In this document: positions 4,540-5,794 of the stretch, in pieces
Layout: each line of letters opens with the position of its first letter
How positions within the stretch are numbered: the first letter of the stretch is position 1
Origin: Gammaproteobacteria bacterium
GTDB lineage: Bacteria > Pseudomonadota > Gammaproteobacteria > UBA5335
Direction: 5' to 3'
NCBI GenBank assembly: GCA_011620145.1
Contig: WOZT01000138.1
Location: forward strand, 1 to 5,849
DNA: 5,849 bases
The notes under the pieces: model-generated
The model's input: the letters and a program-made list of their open reading frames with translations, nothing else
What the model was told of the DNA's origin: nothing
Database searches by the model: none
Translations under genes and position numbers: made by a program

Positions 4540-5409
4540 TCAGAACACCCGGCCCAGGCTCAGGGTATAGACATACGGATCGGCCTCGACCTTGACCCGC
4601 GCATCGGAAGCCTGGACGTTGCCGACCACGCCGCCGTCGGTCACCACGTTGGTGATGCGGTTGTCAAAACTCAGTTTTACCCGCATCACATCAAGTCCCA
4701 GAAACCACTTTTTGGTCAGGTCCACGTCGATACCGGCTTGAAGGATGCTGCCCCATGAATCGCTCACGTTCAGATCCGGCGCTGTGCCTGGATCCGTGCG
4801 GTTGGTCCACAGGCTGGGGTCCACCAGGCGTTCGTTGTAGGTAATGGTGTAGGTGGCGCCCGCGCCAATGTAAGGCCGCACGCGATGATCGGGGAAAGGC
4901 TGGTAGACGAACTTCAGGTTAAGGGGCGCGGCCGTAACATCCGCAATCTTGCCGTTGAGGGGACCCACTTGCACATTGCTCAGGCGCGGAATGTGAACCC
5001 GCACCAAGGGCTCCTCCTTCAAGCTGCCCTGACCGGTATTGTCAAACTTGAGTGTCGGCAGGCCAAGCGTCGTTTCAATCGCGAAGTGGGGCGTCAACAT
5101 GTAGCCCAGGGTAATCGTTGCGATCTCATCGGGTGAGACGCCGATGCGCGAGCCCGCCACCGGCCCGGCGGGCAGGACGGTGCCGAGAATCGGCACGTTG
5201 GTATCTCGATCAAAGGTCAAGGGTCCGGAACTGGAATCCGGGTCGAATCGGCTGACGCCAAATTTGGCGTAGACACTCCCCGCCTCCAAGGGATTGAGCG
5301 CGGGTTGCGCCAGCCAGTGATCCTCCGCATGAGCCGATAGAGGGGCGCAAAATAAAACAGCCAATGCACCACGGCTTCCCAGCCGCTGCCAAAGCGAAAC
5401 CTGATCCAT
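4540..5409 (-). CDS. ompW: OmpW-family outer-membrane beta-barrel protein
   Basis: This 289-residue precursor is an OmpW-type eight-stranded porin, a family associated with passage of small hydrophobic compounds and with oxygen or stress adaptation. Seen: an N-terminal signal peptide with hydrophobic core GALAVLFCAPLSAHA, probably cleaved after Ala28; family segments TLGYMLTPHFAIETTLGLP (100-118), LKFVYQPFPDHRVRPYIGAGATY (about 165-187) and the AGIDVDLTKKWFLGLDV region (225-241); alternating barrel strands; and the C-terminal Phe289 signature recognised by the BAM machinery. It is longer than the usual 210-230 residues, mainly through loops near 60-95, 120-160 and 195-220. The start is ATG 5409 with AGGAGGA at 5417-5423, spacing 7. 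A dyad lies 87 bp upstream. I see no clear FNR site. A weak promoter (TTGAAT/GATAGG, 17 bp apart) precedes it on the minus strand. Confidence 0.9.
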   Translation of the reverse strand: MDQVSLWQRLGSRGALAVLFCAPLSAHAEDHWLAQPALNPLEAGSVYAKFGVSRFDPDSSSGPLTFDRDTNVPILGTVLPAGPVAGSRIGVSPDEIATITLGYMLTPHFAIETTLGLPTLKFDNTGQGSLKEEPLVRVHIPRLSNVQVGPLNGKIADVTAAPLNLKFVYQPFPDHRVRPYIGAGATYTITYNERLVDPSLWTNRTDPGTAPDLNVSDSWGSILQAGIDVDLTKKWFLGLDVMRVKLSFDNRITNVVTDGGVVGNVQASDARVKVEADPYVYTLSLGRVF

Positions 5410-5495: not shown

Positions 5496-5509
5496 CCGCT
5501 TCAAAGCGG
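5496..5509. repeat. 14-bp dyad upstream of the OmpW gene
   Basis: CCGCTT-CA-AAGCGG is a perfect 6-bp-arm palindrome, 87-100 bp upstream of the OmpW start. It could be an operator. No regulator that recognises it is known to me. It is too far from the start codon to sequester the ribosome site. Confidence 0.35.
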
Positions 5510-5576
5510 ATGAAAGGGAATTGGCCGCGCGAATTGCGTGGGCCGGCATGGAAGTCTCAGGCTTGGGGGCCGGGTC

Positions 5577-5587
5577 AAGTGTCATCC
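5577..5587 (+). repeat. Outlying copy of the Tn7-like end motif (AAGTGTCATCC)
   Basis: AAGTGTCATCC is an exact 11-bp match to the motif in the glmS-proximal repeat (minus strand of 5744-5754). It points the same way as the left-end copy at 5629-5644 but lies 36 bp outside the proposed 147-bp element. It may be a relic of an older or longer left end. A chance match cannot be excluded. Confidence 0.35.
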
Positions 5588-5628
5588 TCAAAGCATTGTT
5601 TGGCGTTGGGCGCTGTCATGATTGTGGG

Positions 5629-5644
5629 AATATAGTTTCATCCT
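5629..5644 (+). repeat. Left-end transposase-site-like repeat
   Basis: AATATAGTTTCATCCT matches the inverted copy at 5723-5738 at 15 of 16 positions. It abuts the left terminal TGTGGGA directly. Compared with the right end it lacks five bases between terminus and motif. Confidence 0.6.
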
Positions 5645-5722
5645 TTCAAGCAGCCGAATCGCCCAGTTCATGCGGTCTTGAGCGCTTGCATACCACCTTC
5701 GAGGCCAGCAAGGATCATTCTT

Positions 5723-5738
5723 AGGATGAAACTTTATT
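5723..5738 (-). repeat. Right-end inner transposase-site-like repeat
   Basis: On the minus strand this reads AATAAAGTTTCATCCT. It is the inner of two copies in tandem at a 20-bp period and inverted relative to the left-end copy. Confidence 0.6.
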
Positions 5739-5743
5739 TATAC

Positions 5744-5758
5744 GGATGACACTTTATT
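5744..5758 (-). repeat. Right-end terminal transposase-site-like repeat
   Basis: On the minus strand this reads AATAAAGTGTCATCC. It is the outermost copy, separated from the TGTGGGA terminus by TGCA. It differs from the inner copy at one position (GTGTC versus GTTTC). Confidence 0.6.
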
Positions 5759-5769
5759 TGCATCCCACA

Positions 5770-5794
5770 ACAACAGCCAATGCGCTTGTCGGTT
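5770..5794. other. attTn7-equivalent spacer between glmS stop and element end
   Basis: Exactly 25 bp separate the last base of the glmS stop codon (5795) from the element terminus (5769). In Tn7, TnsD binds the end of glmS and directs insertion about 25 bp downstream. No hairpin terminator for glmS is visible in this spacer, so the native terminator may have been displaced by insertion. Confidence 0.55.

Follow-up and report, generated by a model that had tools for sequence, protein, structure and literature searches.

Tn7 is moved by several Tns proteins: TnsB binds repeated sites in the transposon ends, TnsA and TnsB together cut and join, and TnsC has a connecting role (PMC2918618, PMC11406308, PMC13370975). 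TnsD binds the end of the glmS gene (PMC2918618), and the transposon inserts about 20 bp past the glmS stop codon with its right (R) end toward glmS (PMC2918618, PMC11406308), which gives rise to a 5-bp duplication (PMC2918618, PMC11406308, PMC13370975). The ends themselves show a distinct layout of repeated sites (PMC11406308, PMC13370975). The locus described here lies directly after glmS in a window of 5,849 nucleotides (the whole stretch of DNA that was analysed), and the element that it carries fits a Tn7 insertion in place and orientation.

In laboratory mini-Tn7 systems, the Tns proteins are supplied in trans. Such constructs consist of two Tn7 ends without tns genes, inserted at attTn7 (PMC4321384), and in this they resemble the element in the window; however, they are built by hand around a payload, whereas the window element is natural and gene-free. 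A second likeness is to the Tn3-derived TIMEs and the IS-derived MITEs, which are short, lack a transposase and carry the ends of an autonomous family (PMC4133298, PMC10969869). These are bounded by Tn3- or IS-type inverted repeats, whereas the window element has asymmetric Tn7-like arrays, and a Tn7-like transposase is made up of several subunits plus a target selector, unlike the one behind TIMEs and IS-derived MITEs. Among the literature matches listed, Tn7-derived MITEs are not described, and a claim to novelty is limited to the literature searched. A survey that covers 6,549 Tn7-like transposons uses none of the terms “non-autonomous,” “nonautonomous,” and “miniature” in its accessible text (PMC8649781); the available part of a prokaryotic MITE review mentions Tn7 only because of its target site and in the title of a reference, and that of the TIME paper deals with Tn3. 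The large survey began from proteins (PMC8649781), so that gene-less copies would escape it.

The tnsABCDE transposon at glmS of E. coli 873.10 (NZ_CP061754) shares with the window element the terminus TGTGGGATG and an R end toward glmS, which lies 24 nt from the stop codon compared to 25 nt in the window; it has three R sites at positions 12/32/52 and a 5-bp duplication. It differs in its length of 28.6 kb, in its tnsABCDE genes, in a cargo that includes clpK and other heat-resistance genes, and in the wider spacing of its left (L) sites: these lie at 12/157/212 (and at 12/136/191 in the Acinetobacter transposons), compared to 11-12/77-79/133-135 in six small elements (G001, a genome of the same genus as the window; P. 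kurunegalensis; A. veronii; Citrobacter; A. caviae; Rms149). The plasmid elements of K. quasipneumoniae (pKAM644_4) and S. xiamenensis (HD6452) have the same termini, perfect duplications and an L layout that matches the small elements (12/81/136 and 12/78/133, respectively, the middle site of the latter being hand-counted), but they are 16.9 and 20.5 kb long and carry tns genes; their TnsB proteins share 66.6 and 76.5% identity with TnsB of E. coli 873.10. Four non-autonomous elements (A. veronii p158496, Citrobacter pBM527-2, A. caviae BC01 p1, and Rms149) have the same ends and L spacing, with perfect duplications in all except Rms149, and differ from the window element by one or two non-tns genes.

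A gene-less element behind glmS

The sequence-only reading, according to which the attachment site at glmS is occupied by a Tn7-like element without genes, is supported. Two exact copies of the repeat AATAAAGTnTCATCC lie on the minus strand (5744-5758 and 5724-5738) and a third, with one mismatch, on the plus strand (5629-5643); the right terminus is exactly 25 nt past the glmS stop codon (5797-5795), with the spacer running from 5794 to 5770. Read inward from the R terminus, TGTGGGATGCAAATAAAGTGTCATCC spans 5769-5744, and the second copy of AATAAAGTTTCATCC follows 20 bp farther (5738-5724). Of the two borders that had been suggested, 5623 and 5769, the right one stands and the left one does not. 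TGTGGGA is present at 5623 and its reverse complement ends at 5769, but at 5623 it is the base run before the internal L site 3, and in G001 it reads TGTGAGA. Among duplication-verified elements that have a third L site, this site lies 133-212 nt inside the terminus; moreover, L site 2 (5573-5587) falls outside the suggested borders. An element confined to the 147-bp unit 5623-5769 was rejected because its left site is internal and its flanks, ATGAT and ACAAC, show no duplication. The borders that follow from alignment to relatives enclose about 266 bp (Table 1), the one at 5504 being approximate since the left terminus has decayed.

Table 1. Features of the glmS-proximal part of the window.
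Feature	Position	Strand	Basis or remark
Gene-less Tn7-like miniature element	5504..5769	-	R end toward glmS; alignment to both 295-bp copies, end profiles
R end	5719..5769	-	Terminus TGTGGGATG at 5769; R profile 46.4 bits, E 2e-13, model positions 1-51
R site 1, AATAAAGTGTCATCC	5744..5758	-	Sequence match
R site 2, AATAAAGTTTCATCC	5724..5738	-	Sequence match
L arm, inner part	5571..5659	+	L profile 28.9 bits, E 1.4e-8, model positions 75-158
L site 3, AATATAGTTTCATCC	5629..5643	+	Site search and alignment to relatives
L site 2, GGTCAAGTGTCATCC	5573..5587	+	At most 4 mismatches to consensus; aligns with L site 2 of relatives
Decayed outer left end (L site 1 and terminus)	5504..5530	+	Gaps and substitutions compared to G001 (alignment)
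Middle, 77 bp	5644..5720	.	Common to G001 (66/77) and the P. kurunegalensis plasmid element (62/77)
Spacer, glmS stop to R terminus, 25 nt (attTn7 position)	5770..5794	.	Counted
glmS 3' end, stop TAA, truncated by contig end	5795..5849	-	Region recognised by TnsD in Tn7
OmpW-family gene, next downstream of glmS	4540..5409	-	Full-length in the window

The R end of the window element holds two predicted TnsB-type sites compared to three in G001, and in the alignment it is 20 bp shorter. L sites 2 and 3 are 56 bp apart, a spacing that recurs in 6 of the other 13 mapped elements (see below), with 55 bp in a further 4; the S. xiamenensis element, at 55 bp by hand count, is the eleventh at 55-56 bp, and those of P. 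veronii and A. hydrophila are without a third L site. The layout is thus that of the family, i.e., TGT...ACA termini, R sites close-packed at 20 bp next to an intact terminus, and L sites spread over about 130 bp. Missing from the window copy are an intact outer left terminus, which G001 retains, and a 5-bp target-site duplication, which is perfect in 10 of the 14 mapped elements. Between the ends there is no tns gene, and with about 266 bp the element is not an autonomous Tn7-like transposon with tnsA, tnsB and tnsC; rather, it is short and gene-less with ends in common with an autonomous family, as in MITEs. A 67-aa reading frame overlaps the element (5521-5724), and no frame of similar length is kept in step in G001 or in the plasmid copy. 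Nothing stands out among the remaining window genes (GST, histidine kinase, response regulator, hexapeptide protein, SAM methyltransferase, OmpW). At 5496-5509, right at the eroded left border, there is a terminator-like hairpin oriented as glmS.

The strength of the match was assessed with an R-end profile (72 bp) and an L-arm profile (175 bp) built from six elements, one of which (Rms149) lacks a duplication; neither the window nor G001 nor any gene-less copy was part of this set. The window matches both profiles (Table 1), with three L-profile matches at E≤10, none of them within the decayed outer left end, 5504-5530. R and L scores are 70.5 and 61.5 bits for G001, 69.9 and 63.7 bits for the P. 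kurunegalensis copy, 46.6 and 26.2 bits for P. veronii, and 43.6 and 33.8 bits for A. hydrophila. When the window was shuffled 500 times under a first-order Markov model, no match at E≤10 was obtained with the R profile and two, of 7.4 and 7.1 bits, with the L profile. Single sites can match randomly, as a 23-bp match in genome G039 and a reversed control pattern that matched 2 of 369 genomes illustrate, but the scores on both arms compared to shuffles, the constant distances between sites and the presence of tns genes within elements that share these ends leave next to no credibility to a chance resemblance of intergenic sequence, or to the ends of an IS21-type or other element. That the repeats might match IS21-family ends with no tnsABCD relative had been put forward as a possible refutation; it failed, as the ends match tns-bearing elements. 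Searches with the sequences and profiles of this end family gave no link to IS21.

The glmS site in same-genus genomes

A 350-base query was searched against 56 genomes, the window's own included (E≤0.001), and matched 22 of them. Beyond the glmS tail, and aside from the own genome, where the element is single-copy, only G001 matched, plus the 23-bp match in G039, which was dropped as chance because it lies inside an apparent coding gene (read by eye). The G001 element, 295 bp long, occupies the same place; its outermost sequences are TGTGGGATG and CATCCCACA, its R sites lie at 12/32/52, and its L sites lie at 11/78/134. In the other two same-genus genomes searched, G002 and G003, glmS is followed by the OmpW gene and the element is absent. 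The element is thus present in one and missing from two of the three other same-genus genomes, and the alternative that it is ordinary conserved intergenic DNA is not borne out by these genomes. The gap between glmS and ompW measures 385 nt in the window, which leaves 119 nt after subtraction of 266, and 113 and 118 nt at the empty sites of G002 and G003, respectively (hand counts, start codons as read).

In G001, only the last 59 residues of OmpW (232-290) were found, beginning 17 nt from the left terminus of the element, so that this terminus directly borders internal OmpW sequence at about residue 232 (L003:1875-1892). This junction may reflect either a deletion beside the element or an insertion after a deletion. 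The flanks in G001, GTTGC and GCCGC, agree at three of five positions and hence do not form a 5-bp duplication.

An old miniature insertion could since have been taken into host use, e.g., as a glmS terminator or as a 3' structure of the mRNA, and its position directly after glmS, its 16-nt inverted repeats and its retention in two species would suit such a role, as would the terminator-like site that runs in glmS direction across the eroded left border (5509-5496; one such site was found in 450 bp on both strands, with 0.3 expected). However, the RNA fold is no better than that of shuffled sequences (z -0.73; 47 of 200 shuffles fold equally well or better). Moreover, the neighbouring DNA of window and G001 is 95.0% identical over 3,568 aligned columns, but the aligned stretch with the element reaches 88.6% over 306 ungapped columns, below the third-codon positions of four neighbouring genes (91-95%), so that it looks unconstrained. 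The 20-bp difference between the R ends of the two species, the eroded tip and the absence of the element from two same-genus genomes likewise speak against host use, which we regard as very improbable.

A family of ends with and without tns genes

With the G001 element as BLAST query, 291 of 72,556 plasmid records were matched, one of which covers at least 80% of the query. From a selection of records, both ends were mapped for 14 elements, the window included. A perfect 5-bp duplication flanks ten of them (E. coli 873.10, A. nosocomialis, A. soli, S. xiamenensis, K. quasipneumoniae, A. veronii, Citrobacter, A. caviae, P. veronii, and A. hydrophila), whereby A. soli and A. nosocomialis have the same flank and similar neighbours and perhaps represent one event; Rms149, P. 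kurunegalensis, G001, and the window are without one. Outside the 14 are a second Rms149-type record (LC621169), H15 with a decayed R end, pKPN-3967 and pSE5419-2 with R ends but no mapped left end, and pKAM471_2, in which an R end is accompanied by a broken left end.

The elements of E. coli, K. quasipneumoniae, A. nosocomialis, and S. xiamenensis contain tns genes, with tnsA adjoining the R end. In K. quasipneumoniae and A. nosocomialis, TnsA, TnsD, and TnsE are named as such and TnsB and TnsC appear under domain names; tnsD of S. xiamenensis is annotated short, and in A. soli the tnsB frame is interrupted at an IS. No gene of their own is found in the elements of P. veronii (194 bp), A. hydrophila (205 bp), P. 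kurunegalensis (295 bp), G001 (295 bp), and the window (about 266 bp), an annotated coding sequence overlapping one end in the P. kurunegalensis and A. hydrophila copies. The P. veronii and A. hydrophila elements have two L sites each, at 12/69 and 12/79, respectively. These two gene-less copies, on NZ_CP142043 (194 bp) and NZ_CP028567 (205 bp), are flanked by perfect 5-bp duplications, which is strong sequence evidence that gene-less forms of this end family can transpose.

Several side observations arose from these records. Two gene-less copies of 194 and 205 bp on different plasmids (L050:22009-22202 and L052:4047-4251) are flanked by one and the same pentamer, AGAAC/GTTCT, duplicated in opposite orientations; a target preference may be hinted at by this coincidence. 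Rms149 (L028:3070-4167) and LC621169 (L051:7702-8799) represent a Tn7-like non-autonomous element with one gene, a 3'-5' exonuclease. In A. caviae pKAM471_2 (L046:3182-4551), a qnrS2 stretch lies between a second Tn7-like end set with AATAAAGTnTCATAC-type sites and is flanked by a perfect CTTCG duplication; qnrS2 has been described in a mobile insertion cassette with 22-bp inverted repeats, in a source whose accessible text does not contain the word Tn7 (PMC5444012). Three direct AATAAAGTATCATAC-like sites, 20-21 bp apart, on contig G166:C170 (L037:1501-1567) probably form another Tn7-like right end.

The shared middle and the origin of the short form

A 295-bp relative of the window element is located away from glmS, on the P. 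kurunegalensis (Pseudomonas) plasmid NZ_CP156902. With the middle included, it is 78.2% identical to the window element and 80.3% to that of G001; both of its tips are altered, and it has no 5-bp duplication. The 77-bp middle is identical at 62 of 77 positions between window and plasmid, at 66 between window and G001, and at 55 between G001 and plasmid, each pair scoring far above 1000 shuffles (e.g., 101.5 for window and plasmid compared to a shuffle maximum of 31). BLAST of the middle against the plasmid collection returned its own record as significant and two others at E 0.7 and 9, and the middle is absent from the tns-bearing elements that were compared for it. A relic of a coding gene was considered by eye, and no search supported it. 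The L arm of the P. kurunegalensis copy has matches in 124 other plasmid records at 60-80% identity; of all 125 records with this arm, 117 are typed mobilizable.

The sequence-only reading had left two origins open, a MITE mobilised in trans and the collapsed remnant of a full element, and the former is preferred. For a collapse in place, in which a full-length Tn7-like transposon would have lost its genes by internal deletion while both ends stayed behind, it can be said that a full-length tnsABCDE element with these ends sits at glmS in E. coli 873.10 and that the window copy has clearly lost DNA. However, the same 77-bp middle recurs in the plasmid copy, and separate collapses would not yield the same join; in addition, gene-less copies with intact duplications exist elsewhere. 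Collapse in place is therefore unlikely. Because window, G001, and P. kurunegalensis copies have the middle in common, the short form, to judge from sequence comparison, most likely predated the parting of these copies and has occupied two unrelated places. A MITE is expected to have copies at unrelated places, and the middle is indeed found at glmS in two species and on one plasmid, with two further gene-less copies of the same end family on plasmids; the single copy in the own genome is a counterpoint.

Search for a helper and further copies

The window's own genome, only 86.5% complete, yielded neither a TniQ nor a TnsA gene. TniQ was detected in one of nine genomes, namely G001, and not in the own genome or seven relatives; TnsA was detected in one of ten, again G001. 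This genome, a bin with 7% contamination, holds a single tns operon (G001:C32, L039:5413-13432), in which tnsA, tnsB-like, tnsC-like, and tnsD genes and a fifth gene of 541 aa without a Pfam match lie next to genes for type I restriction-modification. No end sequences were found for it, and its TnsB shares 37% identity with TnsB of E. coli 873.10. As a helper, this operon was set aside, since no matching sites occur near its tnsA, and no helper was identified in the lineage. A helper of the K. quasipneumoniae or S. xiamenensis type would be a better candidate, because the L spacing of these transposons matches that of the small elements, whereas it is wider in E. coli and Acinetobacter.

A pattern scan of 369 genomes of the class, allowing up to 3 mismatches, matched 6 and was exact only in the window; the plasmid copy as query matched one genome of the 369, the window itself. 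These scans are uninformative on prevalence, as G001 is outside the listed sample and was not matched by the plasmid-copy query. A genome-contig scan with the spacing pattern returned one stretch (PKDC01000052.1), and neither viral contigs (exact R-end pattern) nor phages (BLAST) contained a match. Among E. coli genomes, 50 of 5,426 match part of the plasmid copy, and none covers 80% of it.

A model for the window element and its implications

The window contains a real, decayed, gene-less Tn7-like element at attTn7; MITEs and Tn7-like elements are kinds that are already known. We put the probability at roughly 0.8 that 5504-5769 is a gene-less Tn7-like miniature that likely reached the glmS site by TnsA/B/C/D transposition in trans. 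The best overall reading is that a MITE with Tn7-like ends, which was likely moved in trans and brought to attTn7 by TnsD, has since decayed. In such a scenario, TnsB would bind the predicted R and L sites, TnsAB would cut and join the element ends, and TnsD bound to the glmS end would select the insertion place, all Tns proteins being provided in trans by a larger Tn7-like transposon. The copy has decayed since, as it lacks one R site that its relatives possess and its outer left terminus is eroded; because of these losses, it is probably no longer mobile. We infer trans-mobilisation of the window element from these sequence features; in the sub-family of window, G001, and P. kurunegalensis copies, none of the three has a 5-bp duplication that would attest the insertion event directly. 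The missing helper in the lineage, the OmpW junction in G001 and the absence of the middle from the tns-bearing elements that were compared also count against this explanation.

If the explanation is true, non-autonomous riders as short as about 200 bp can be served by Tn7-like machinery, the safe haven at glmS also harbours gene-less riders, and the existing copies are natural tests of the smallest movable end pair. Since further insertion can be inhibited by Tn7 at places where one copy is present (PMC11406308), a stub at glmS might determine whether the site stays open to full-sized elements that arrive later. A broader and more tentative view, to which we give somewhat less than even odds, is that Tn7-like transposons have gene-less parasites of their own, i.e., natural mini-Tn7s of about 200-300 bp, which exploit the Tns machinery, are spread by plasmids, become parked at glmS and may exclude full-sized elements by target immunity.
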